DNA of 64,000 nt. It comes from Galbibacter mesophilus (GTDB lineage: Bacteria; Bacteroidota; Bacteroidia; Flavobacteriales; Flavobacteriaceae). The notes under the pieces were generated by a model that was given only the letters and a program-made list of their open reading frames with translations, was not told the DNA's origin and made no database searches. The position numbers were made by a program, and so were the translations under genes. The stretch lies in the NCBI RefSeq assembly GCF_023721415.1, contig NZ_JAMQVC010000001.1, positions 1,240,001-1,304,000 on the forward strand, written 5' to 3'. This document shows, one piece after another, positions 31,666 to 55,873 of this stretch; position 1 is the stretch's first letter; every line of letters starts with the position of its first letter.

Positions 31666-31736
31666 CTGAAGTTTCTACTTCGGAAGATACAATTTTAACT
31701 GAAGCTTTCCCTTTCCTTTCTAAAAATCTGATGCTC
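31666..31736. repeat. 71-bp direct repeat, copy 1 (5' region of glpD)
   Basis: Matches 32093-32163 with two mismatches and no gap; similarity continues weakly through CTGTAGG. It lies directly upstream of glpD on the minus strand, so it probably includes the glpD leader or promoter. Confidence 0.9.
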
Positions 31737-31911
31737 GCTCCTGTAGGTTTTTCAAAACTCTGTAGGTTTTTGAAAGTTTTAAAATATCTGTAAGGCGAAA
31801 AAAATCTTGGAGGTACCCCAGTTCATATTTGATAATATAAAAGAAATAGAATTAAAATAATATTACAACAAACTCTATATAAGGTAAGAAAACAATTTCA
31901 TCATTTTATGG

Positions 31912-32082
31912 TCAATTAGTGATATAGAAAATCGCTTTTCCCAAAAAATATCCTGCCACCCCAATAGTTGCAAGCATAGCAATTATGACTAATATTGTTT
32001 TGACCGTTTTATTAACACCTTTTTGTGTTCCAATCAAAGCAAGAATTATGATGATGGTATTTGTAAATAATAAAATTTCCAT
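31912..32082 (-). CDS. Small two-helix membrane protein (56 aa) near glpD
   Basis: A 56-codon frame starting MEILLFTNTIIIILALIGTQ, then KGVNKTVKTILVIIAMLATIGVAGYFLG: two hydrophobic helices joined by a basic loop. It starts 10 bp after a copy of the 71-bp upstream region that also precedes glpD, so both genes may share a promoter type. Both products begin ME. The function is unknown. Confidence 0.5.
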   Translation of the reverse strand: MEILLFTNTIIIILALIGTQKGVNKTVKTILVIIAMLATIGVAGYFLGKAIFYITN

Positions 32083-32092
32083 ACATTATATA

Positions 32093-32163
32093 CTGAAGTT
32101 TCTATTTGGGAAGATACAATTTTAACTGAAGCTTTCCCTTTCCTTTCTAAAAATCTGATGCTC
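32093..32163. repeat. 71-bp direct repeat, copy 2 (5' region of the 56-aa ORF)
   Basis: Second copy of the glpD upstream sequence, placed before the 56-aa ORF. The two mismatches are C/T and C/G near the gene-proximal end. Confidence 0.9.
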
Positions 32164-32241
32164 CCTTCTGTAGGGTTTCCAAAAAGACCTTGTAGGATGC
32201 TAGTTCTTACTCGGCAAGTCGTCGTTCAAAGCGTATAGATA

Positions 32242-32682
32242 AATATTCCGGTCAGGGAAAAGTATATTCTTGTTAGGGAAATCTATATTCTTGTCAGGGC
32301 AATCTATATTCTTTCCATGGAAAAGTATATTCTTGTCAGGGAGCTATATATTATTTTGATGGGACTTTATATCCTTGTCAGGGAAAAGTATATTCTTGTT
32401 AGGGAAATCTATATTCTTGTCAGGGAACTATATATTCTTCCGATGGAACTTTATATTCTTTCAACAAGGTTTTATATTCTCGTAGTTGGACTGTATATTT
32501 TAACGATTGCACTGTATATTCTTGCAGTTGTACTTTATATTATCGGGATTGCACTATATATTCTTCCCGTTGCACTCTATATTCTTGTAGTTGCACTATA
32601 TATTATGTCAATTGGACTGTATATTCTTGCTGTTGTACTTTATATTTTCCTCGTTGCACTCAATATTCTGGTTATTGCACTT
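32242..32682 (+). repeat. Tandem array of 21 units of exactly 21 bp
   Basis: Units begin at 32242 and every 21 bp to 32662, with a degenerate partial at 32683. The consensus is TATATTCTTG followed by TYAGGGAAATC in the left half and by TAGTTGCACTN in the right half, with mixed units between. The first six bases TATATT are kept in 18 of 21 units, while the last 12 bases vary. No indel occurs. 21 bp equals two turns of B-DNA, so the AT-rich steps all face one side of the helix. The array fills most of the gap between the 56-aa ORF and pbpC. Confidence 0.95.
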
Positions 32683-32730
32683 TATAAGCTAACCTTTCTA
32701 AGTTCTGTAATGATGGGTTGGAGGCCATAA
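32317..32730 (+). CDS. Heptapeptide-repeat ORF encoded by the 21-bp array (doubtful gene)
   Basis: The array is open in one plus-strand frame from 32239 to the TAA at 32728; the first ATG is at 32317, giving 137 residues. The product repeats seven residues: YILVREK/L/I in the first part, then YILVVAL-like units, so it would be an almost wholly hydrophobic helix or strand with Tyr every seventh residue, ending TFLSSVMMGWRP. Tyr is always TAT, and Ile almost always ATT, which points to DNA-level conservation or recent expansion rather than protein selection. The minus strand has stops. No signal peptide, no known family. I regard translation as possible but unproven. Confidence 0.3.
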   Translation: MEKYILVRELYIILMGLYILVREKYILVREIYILVRELYILPMELYILSTRFYILVVGLYILTIALYILAVVLYIIGIALYILPVALYILVVALYIMSIGLYILAVVLYIFLVALNILVIALYKLTFLSSVMMGWRP

Positions 32731-32753
32731 ATCGCTGTTTTATTTTTATAAGC

Positions 32754-35138
32754 CTAGGTAGTTTTTTCAACTTCAATAAAAATGGTCTTTTCATTGCCCT
32801 CTTCATCAATGGCAGTCAGCGTATGTGTTCCAACCGAAGGGAGTATGGCGACTTCATGAAAGTTTTTGGTCTTTCCTAGGTAAGTGTCATCCAGATACCA
32901 AAACACAACCGAATTGGCACTGGCATGGGCAATTTTGCATATCAGCTCGCCTGTTTCACCTTTAAAATTCTTGGTGAGCACTATTTTATTCCCATTTTTC
33001 GGGTAAATAAAGTCCATTATCTCTTTAGGTTCTCCATCGCAACCAGCGAGCATAGGGGGGAGCGTTTTATAATCCGCATTATTATTTTTGAAGTAAAACT
33101 CCATTAAAGGCGGAAGTTTAAACCAAGCTTCCGTTTTCATTTCTTCCAAAGAGTAGCAATCACCATTTACACGATACTGCTTCTTATCGTCTAGGTGAAA
33201 CAATTGGTGAAACGGACAAACATCAAAGTTTTTTCCTGCAAGGGGAACCTGCATTTCTGTGGATGGGCAAATAGGGGAGGCCAAATACCCACTAGTTTTA
33301 CATACAGTTACTTCCGTTAAGGCATCAAAAGGTGTATTAAACCAATCTCTTTTTGGAAGAAGATTAAAAACATCGAATAAAATAGGGGCGGCGCTGCTTA
33401 CTCCCGTAAGGTTGGGGCGTCCTTCCCCATCGGCATTGCCAACCCAAACCCCGACAAGGTATTTTTTGGTCACTCCAATAGCCCATGCATCGCGGTTGCC
33501 GTAACTGGTGCCTGTTTTCCAAGCTATTTCTTCAGCTGAATCAAAAAAACGCCAAGCTTCTTCTCCTGGTCTGTTTACCTCTTTTAAAGCTTCAAGGGTT
33601 AAGAAAAAGCTTCCGGCATCAAATACCGTTTTTTCAGCGGTTTTCTTTCCGAAGTCAACAATTTCTGACTCATAAAAGGTGGGTTCTCTAAATTCTTTTG
33701 AAAAGTATTCACTGGAAGTTTCAGTAAAATGATTAACCGTACCGGCCATACCGGCATACGCTTTGCTTAGGTCCCACAAGCTGCTTTCCGCGCCTCCCAA
33801 AATAAGGGAGAGCCCATAATAGTTAGCCGATTTATCTATATTTTTTTGCTGAAAGTATTTTAGTTGTGTCCTAAATTTTTGTAGTCCGTAATCCTGCAGC
33901 AATCGCACGGCGGGAACATTTAAAGAGCGTGCCAAAGCGGTATGTGCAGGAACCGCACCTGTATATTCTTTCTCAAAATTTTCGGGTTGATAGCCTCCAA
34001 TTTTTGTTGGAACATCGGCTACCAAGCTATTGGGAAGCAGTTCGCCGCTATCTAACATAGCAGCATAAAGAAAAGGTTTTAACGTACTCCCCGTACTTCT
34101 CGGTGCCTGAATAACATCTACATCTTTTTGATGCTTTTTAGTGGTAGGAGTATTCCCAACGTACGCCAATAGTTTTCTAGTTTCAATATCCATTACCAAA
34201 ACACCCGCATTAAAAACGTTATTTTGCCTAAGATTGTCATAATGCCTTTTTACGATGATGTTGGTTCGTTGTTGTAATTCGAGACTTACGCTTGTTGTTG
34301 TAATTTTTCCCTCTTCTTTGTTTTTAACCAATTGCAATAAATGCGTTGCGTGCTGCGGAAGGGGGAATGGCTTTTCGGGCAAAGGTTCTGTTATGGCCAG
34401 ACGGTACGTAAGCGAATCTATATCTTTTGTGTCAACTAACTTTTTAAGTAATCGGTTTCTTTTTTGTAATAGACGCGCTTTGTTTTTCCCTGGATAAATA
34501 AGGGAAGGAGCATTGGGCAAAACAGCCAGGGTGGCGGTCTCTGCCCAAGAAAGCTGGTGGGAAGGAATGCCAAAATAGCGCCAAGATGCTACTTCCAAAC
34601 CTACCACATTCCCTCCAAAAGGGGCATGTGTAGCATACAATTGTAAAATTTCATCTTTGGTATGGCGAAATTCCAGTCGGGTAGCCAGAATAATTTCTAT
34701 CAATTTCTCAAAATAGGTCCGGTTTTTACCCGCTCTTGAGAGACGGATTACCTGTTGGGTAAGCGTACTTCCACCCCGAATTATCTCTCCCGCCTCAATA
34801 TTTTCTGAAAAAGCTTTGAGTATAGAAACCGGATTAAACCCCGGATGCTGATAGAAATAACCGTCTTCAAAAGCGATTATACTTTTCTTGAATTTCTCTG
34901 GAAGACTGTCGCTGGAAGGAAAACGCCACTGCTCATCCTTTGCAATTTGCGCACCAAGCAATTGTCCCTTTTTATCAAGGATTACGGTGGAAAACGGACT
35001 GTCAAACAATGGCTTCGGAAGCGAAAAATAATACCCAACAAGTAAAAGAACGGCAGCAATGATTAAAATCCGCCGCCTTTTAGTTCGAAAAGGGCCTTTT
35101 CTTTGTTTCCTATTTTTTACTGAACCACTTTTACCCAT
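32754..35138 (-). CDS. pbpC: Penicillin-binding protein 1C
   Basis: A 794-residue bifunctional peptidoglycan synthase. Order: cytoplasmic basic tail, membrane helix (about 25-43), GT51 glycosyltransferase with EDGYFYQHPGFN and GGSTLTQQVIRLSRAG, a transpeptidase with the S-x-x-K motif in TGSTLKPF, KTG in AWKTGTSYGNRDAWAIG, and a C-terminal BiPBP_C domain (about 700-790). It overlaps the upstream alpha-2-macroglobulin gene by 22 bp. This coupling is known in bacteria, where Pbp1C is thought to repair wall damage after attack while the macroglobulin traps proteases. Confidence 0.96.
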   Translation of the reverse strand: MGKSGSVKNRKQRKGPFRTKRRRILIIAAVLLLVGYYFSLPKPLFDSPFSTVILDKKGQLLGAQIAKDEQWRFPSSDSLPEKFKKSIIAFEDGYFYQHPGFNPVSILKAFSENIEAGEIIRGGSTLTQQVIRLSRAGKNRTYFEKLIEIILATRLEFRHTKDEILQLYATHAPFGGNVVGLEVASWRYFGIPSHQLSWAETATLAVLPNAPSLIYPGKNKARLLQKRNRLLKKLVDTKDIDSLTYRLAITEPLPEKPFPLPQHATHLLQLVKNKEEGKITTTSVSLELQQRTNIIVKRHYDNLRQNNVFNAGVLVMDIETRKLLAYVGNTPTTKKHQKDVDVIQAPRSTGSTLKPFLYAAMLDSGELLPNSLVADVPTKIGGYQPENFEKEYTGAVPAHTALARSLNVPAVRLLQDYGLQKFRTQLKYFQQKNIDKSANYYGLSLILGGAESSLWDLSKAYAGMAGTVNHFTETSSEYFSKEFREPTFYESEIVDFGKKTAEKTVFDAGSFFLTLEALKEVNRPGEEAWRFFDSAEEIAWKTGTSYGNRDAWAIGVTKKYLVGVWVGNADGEGRPNLTGVSSAAPILFDVFNLLPKRDWFNTPFDALTEVTVCKTSGYLASPICPSTEMQVPLAGKNFDVCPFHQLFHLDDKKQYRVNGDCYSLEEMKTEAWFKLPPLMEFYFKNNNADYKTLPPMLAGCDGEPKEIMDFIYPKNGNKIVLTKNFKGETGELICKIAHASANSVVFWYLDDTYLGKTKNFHEVAILPSVGTHTLTAIDEEGNEKTIFIEVEKTT

Positions 35139-55712: not shown

Positions 55713-55810
55713 AGTATTCGTTTTGCCTATAAAGATAAGGCTAGGATAAGTTAAATGTTATTTTTTGTTATTGTTTAATTGTTGAATAGACTACGTTTAA
55801 ATTTTTTAAA

Positions 55811-55873
55811 CTCCTAACTCCTAACTCCTAACTCCTAACTCCTAACTCCTGACTTCCGACTCCCGACTTCAGA
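55811..55873. repeat. Tandem heptanucleotide repeat CTCCTAA
   Basis: Nine 7-bp units: five perfect CTCCTAA followed by CTCCTGA, CTTCCGA, CTCCCGA and CTTCAGA. It lies between the EamA gene end and the SDR gene start, outside both ORFs. Confidence 0.95.

Follow-up and report, generated by a model that had tools for sequence, protein, structure and literature searches.

A gene for an unannotated protein and an array of direct repeats with a 21-bp period constitute a previously unrecognised chromosomal pair, of which no published description was found in the open-access literature. The window, that is the whole stretch of 64,000 nucleotides of Galbibacter mesophilus DNA that was analysed, carries one such array in a 1.63-Mb contig. 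A search with its unit, suggested alongside the original prediction, returned homologous arrays across the order and, in this genome, six sister arrays, a seventh being located through the linked gene; the seven sisters and the dedicated protein gene had been missed by the earlier reading. With fair confidence, we interpret the arrays as DNA sites bound in trans by the linked protein on one face of the helix, in a centromere- or titration-like manner.

The window array and its setting comprise the following features.

31696..32759, no strand assigned, segment of about 1.06 kb that holds the array and has no counterpart between glpD and pbpC in the closest congener
32242..32451, plus strand, first array block, 10 GGGAA-type units resembling TATATTCTTGTCAGGGAAAAG
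32452..32472, plus strand, hybrid unit TATATTCTTTCAACAAGGTTT joining both blocks
32473..32682, plus strand, second array block, 10 TTGCACT-type units resembling TATATTCTTGCAGTTGCACTT, in phase with the first block

Read gap-free, positions 32242-32682 are exactly 21 x 21 bp of direct repeats without any phase shift, as was originally claimed. TRF reports period 21 at 32243-32460 and 32473-32686, and the 6% indels that it gives for the second half are an alignment effect, not a real shift. Units start with TATATT or AATATT throughout, with one TATATC; TATATT at unit positions 1-6 is nearly invariant, and G16 and A18 are also kept. The segment TATATTCTTG had been described as well kept, which holds for TATATT but only in part for CTTG. 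The unit tail does not drift along the array, as had been thought, but switches abruptly from GGGAA (units 1-10) to TTGCACT (units 12-21) by way of the single hybrid unit at 32452. Array length in G. mesophilus could be affected by assembly (8 contigs); the conservation of unit numbers in other genomes argues that such arrays are assembled faithfully.

The G. mesophilus genome holds eight arrays in total, and about 111 matches to the unit pattern as against 0 for a reversed-pattern control. The first six sister arrays listed here have the same unit types as the window array.

C5:54657
C2:640347, extending to 641121, directly behind a 242-aa gene
C1:921015, minus strand
C1:394473, minus strand
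C2:10015
C4:248921, minus strand
C3:5712, downstream of a broken copy of the gene, with a third unit type

The arrays named C5 and C1a are also bipartite and made of the same two unit types, C5 in the block order of the window array and C1a in the opposite order. The GGGAA type of the first window block is that of the gene-linked array at C2:640347-641121. The TTGCACT type matches neither array of the two gene copies in this genome and may be the remnant of a lost paralogue of the gene. Placement is in intergenic DNA, between convergent genes in 4 of 7 cases. Congeners lack these arrays at the sites that can be traced: the glpD-pbpC gap of G005 is about 110 bp long, and traceable sites orthologous to those of the other arrays are empty in G005 and G006.

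Linkage of the arrays to one gene family is near-universal. When array neighbours were listed, with a simple ORF rule to call genes, seven genomes each showed one array behind a member of this gene family and in the same orientation as that gene; in G157 and G719 the gene copy is interrupted. Full-length homologues number 26, drawn from one viral contig and from the families Flavobacteriaceae and Weeksellaceae, and 25 of them are followed by a same-strand array of 21-bp period. Because five alignment seeds and locus L176 came through arrays, we also give the count for homologues found by protein only, which is 17/18. The background frequency is 0/102 segments (Fisher p~6e-19, computed for 16/17 versus 0/102). 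A protein-only search of 396 genomes of the order gave 21 full-length copies, all with top downstream autocorrelation lags of 21, 42 and 63. The homologue on the viral contig (L359, 31% identity) precedes about 13 units, and the out-of-sample congeners G002 and G004 each contain one gene copy (G002b, G004a) with a new array type. The full-length G002a has no array within 1.5 kb, nor has the divergent gene copy of G004 any array. The gene is present in 8/8 genomes that have at least three matches to the array model, versus 20/396 overall (p=9e-12). The species are related, hence neither the linkage nor the co-occurrence counts are independent. By eye, the genes immediately flanking 27 arrays showed no recurrent partner except the linked gene, and no ParA-type partner. 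A further divergent homologue, L351 (G229), lacks a 21-bp array and has 24-bp repeats containing CTGAG upstream, around 1214-1333.

The linked protein is 240-260 aa long and mostly basic, mainly of pI 8.5-9.9; the intact protein of G. mesophilus is acidic (pI 5.8). It matches no Pfam or NCBIfam family above cut-off, ParB-like, Rep and transposase or nuclease families included, and receives no PHROG or PADLOC assignment: PHROG matches are weak and scattered, and the best hit to the PADLOC defence models (E 0.0066) is a weak match of coil type. No relative was found among the phage records searched. The AlphaFold model, built on a shallow two-sequence alignment, predicts an all-helical bundle of eight helices with a disordered middle linker (pLDDT 78) and shows no recognised DNA-binding fold. 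Fold searches with this model of long helices gave no convincing PDB match (Foldseek best E 0.23), and the best VIA-align Z, 9.4, is of a size that helical bundles often reach according to the tool's own warning. By sequence, 14-3-3 helices matched weakly (E 0.003), which was put down to coil similarity. Four or more of the 26 gene copies are broken, by stops in G157, G000-C3 and G004a and by a frameshift in G719, which shows that the element is dispensable or accessory.

What is conserved among the arrays is the period, as the original prediction had implied in attaching weight to 21 bp. Other families of the order have homologous arrays too, for example in Chryseobacterium and Epilithonimonas, and 48 pieces of three units each, aligned without gaps, yield TATATTCTTGCRNNNGNAATN. 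While unit sequence varies widely between species, from AATAAGCTTCCGCCGAAATAG in G144 to TTATAGCAATGTCATTTACGG in G702 and TAAAAATTCAAAAACCTATGG in G088 for gene-linked arrays, the period stays at 21 bp. The more alike two proteins are, the more alike are their repeats (Mantel r=0.575, p=2e-4, as against -0.08 for a reverse-complement control), a correlation of which shared ancestry alone would yield part. Solo arrays of a genome's own gene-linked unit are present in G088, G235 and G182, which have other unit types, as in G. mesophilus. In G144 (C1:1579298 versus C1:3253571), the solo array has the unit of relatives, which differs from the unit linked to the only gene copy there and looks like a trace of a lost matching gene.

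Solo arrays are also stable between species. They are fixed in place beside pepE in four genomes and beside an MFS gene in two, and three orthologous array pairs have 11/11, 11/11 and 12/12 units without indels, though their flanks have some. In the pair G104a/G144, core columns 2-6 hold 1 of 33 differences versus 7.9 expected. In G081/G719b, block swaps (AAC/TCA) affect columns 1-3, and the core there is ATTCTTG and not TATATT. The orthologous units of L324 and L331 likewise show a three-base block swap (AAC/TCA) at the unit start with the unit number kept, which suggests conversion between units. A rare phase shift, one extra base, was seen in array L132 of Chryseobacterium caseinilyticum. 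These observations bear on the view that the arrays are a neutral minisatellite, functionless products of slippage that are in phase by chance. Superperiods of 42 and 63 bp, like the duplication inside array C2a, reflect duplication of unit blocks and are what slippage would leave; yet a period of 21 across unrelated unit sequences, the linkage to one gene family, the conserved core columns and the constant unit number make this view very improbable.

Conservation acts on DNA and not on a peptide, in agreement with the original prediction. Its companion remark, that the frame is open across all units and could give a heptad protein, is true of the window array as regards the open frame and fails for several of its sisters. 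An array encoding a YILxxxx heptad protein would indeed account for the frame being open through the window array and through the 36 units of C2a. However, no start lies upstream of the window array, in-frame stops (TAA, TAG or TGA) interrupt C5, C1a and C2b as well as arrays L083, L125 and G022, and no frame is consistently open in gene-linked arrays; conservation is not codon-periodic, the third codon position being no less conserved than the first two. A coding repeat is thus hardly credible. The array had further been proposed to bend DNA or to seat a row of proteins. The latter is the likeliest use, whereas curvature predicted by a dinucleotide wedge model, with parameters supplied by us, is not above that of column-permuted arrays (mean percentile 0.41 over 28 arrays; window array near the 1st percentile).

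Alternatively, the arrays could act as RNA, transcribed either as a 3' part of the gene's own transcript or on their own, and bound by the helical protein. The fixed orientation of the array relative to the gene and a protein fold that is not that of a classical DNA-binder would fit such a role. Nevertheless, of 24 gene-linked loci about half have a strong terminator between the gene and its array, and solo arrays can point either way with respect to their neighbours and often lie after terminators or between convergent genes; those of G104/G144 and G081/G719 are also beyond a strong terminator. Folding energy (MFE) of most arrays equals that of column-shuffled controls, symmetric pairs are as frequent as expected from the columns, with neither pair covariation nor an excess of hairpins in the arrays, and Rfam gives no match. 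We therefore deem an RNA element decidedly unlikely.

Binding of DNA by the linked protein is the interpretation that we retain. Here, the window array would be a solo site array, bound in trans, of a two-part chromosomal element. The first part is the gene for the protein of about 240 aa, mainly basic, all-helical and without an assigned family. The second consists of 5-37 direct repeats of invariant 21-bp period, with one array just downstream of the gene and more arrays of the same unit dispersed in intergenic DNA. Since each 21-bp unit spans two turns of B-DNA, the sites keep a one-face register, and the protein would bind units side by side on this face, forming a large nucleoprotein cluster at each array; it probably binds such arrays wherever they are located. 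A dedicated adjacent protein, sites in trans and fixed geometry together make cooperative one-face binding the simplest account. The clusters may serve anchoring or segregation, like a centromere, or titration, the former being slightly favoured, and silencing of neighbouring genes is a further candidate role. Several findings count against binding: the lack of a recognised DNA-binding fold, the acidic G. mesophilus protein, the broken gene copies, G002a, and the unmatched TTGCACT and G144 units.

Known systems share parts of this organization. On the F plasmid, sopC lies just downstream of sopB, and this ParABS type Ia system likewise pairs a tandem direct-repeat array with a protein, for which binding in our case is presumed. 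The twelve 43-bp repeats of sopC (PMC6238139) each cover roughly four turns of the helix, as does the 42-bp superperiod that is frequent in the arrays described here. The present system differs in being chromosomal, in its protein, unrelated by sequence, and in having no palindromic core, no ParA-type partner seen by eye beside the array-flanking genes, several arrays per genome and a unit that varies widely between species. Of the ParABS traits, an array beside the gene of a presumed binding protein is found in 25/26 full-length copies, whereas a ParB-like sequence is not, no Pfam or NCBIfam family scoring above cut-off. Plasmid iterons, to which the window array had at first been likened, are direct repeats near 19-22 bp beside a Rep gene of about 250 aa, close to our pair in repeat size and gene length. 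That likeness does not extend further: both parts of the pair sit on chromosomes, a search of 72,556 plasmid records gave no match to the protein, Pfam assigns it to no Rep family, and in its shallow model long helices appear in place of paired winged helices. The omega/parS system of pSM19035 has 7-bp units and a ribbon-helix-helix protein, as against 21 bp and a predicted helical bundle. Its units are contiguous short direct repeats, as in our arrays, and gap-free repetition is needed for their activity (PMC9499535).

REPIN/RAYT systems also combine one gene with linked short repeats that are dispersed elsewhere in the genome (PMC3116915), as do the gene and arrays here, where repeat sequence tracks the gene. 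By analogy, the protein could copy or move array DNA as part of a selfish element, solo arrays being its non-autonomous derivatives. Patchy distribution, the congener sites without arrays, the decay of gene copies while arrays persist and the match of solo to gene-linked arrays all agree with this scenario. REPs, however, are palindromic hairpins and RAYTs transposases, whereas the present arrays are long and in phase, their units are direct and not hairpin-forming, no precise insertion boundary was seen, and the protein matches no transposase or nuclease family. Moreover, solo arrays keep the same loci (pepE, MFS gene) and the same unit number in the species pairs compared, and we hold such an element to be unlikely. 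Finally, TAACTGA heptamers form unexplained intergenic direct-repeat arrays, including in some Bacteroidetes; their 7-bp unit has a fixed sequence and, in the genome examined most closely, usually sits shortly before start codons, and they are not reported to have a linked gene family, unlike the situation here (PMC4679880).

Constant spacing combined with changing sequence, in arrays tied to an unannotated protein family, is the mark of a protein and DNA sites that evolve together. The pair explains puzzling intergenic arrays in Flavobacteriaceae and Weeksellaceae, makes the need for exactly two helical turns directly accessible to study, and provides natural paired, possibly orthogonal, protein-array sets. 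Tentatively, it might represent a new class of centromere-like or anchoring system of Bacteroidota chromosomes, in which a helical-bundle protein of an undescribed family reads lineage-specific in-phase arrays, clusters at several loci and co-evolves rapidly with its repeats.

A broad search for four TATATT at 21-bp spacing also took in simple repeats, phage coding repeats and Firmicutes arrays. We do not claim its 21-bp arrays (Firmicutes and others) for the family, the gene being present in only one locus, L176 of C. balustinum. Arrays of 21-bp TATATT units with other tails were seen in L116, L138, L147, L090, L093, L104, L136 and L126; the hosts of this group are Peribacillus, Cytobacillus, Mesobacillus, Pedobacter and Flavobacterium psychrophilum, and the gene is absent from the same 8-kb pieces. 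Within the window, a direct repeat of about 100 bp (31666-31766 and 32093-32196, about 90% identical over the core) flanks a short reading frame. Its first copy abuts the start of glpD, and a promoter region thus seems to have been duplicated. The small ORF between the two copies (31912-32082, minus strand) encodes 56 aa with membrane-like hydrophobic stretches, and none of six congeners has a match to it in the orthologous region. Elsewhere in the window, the heptamer AACTCCT is repeated in tandem in 6.6 copies at 55809-55863.
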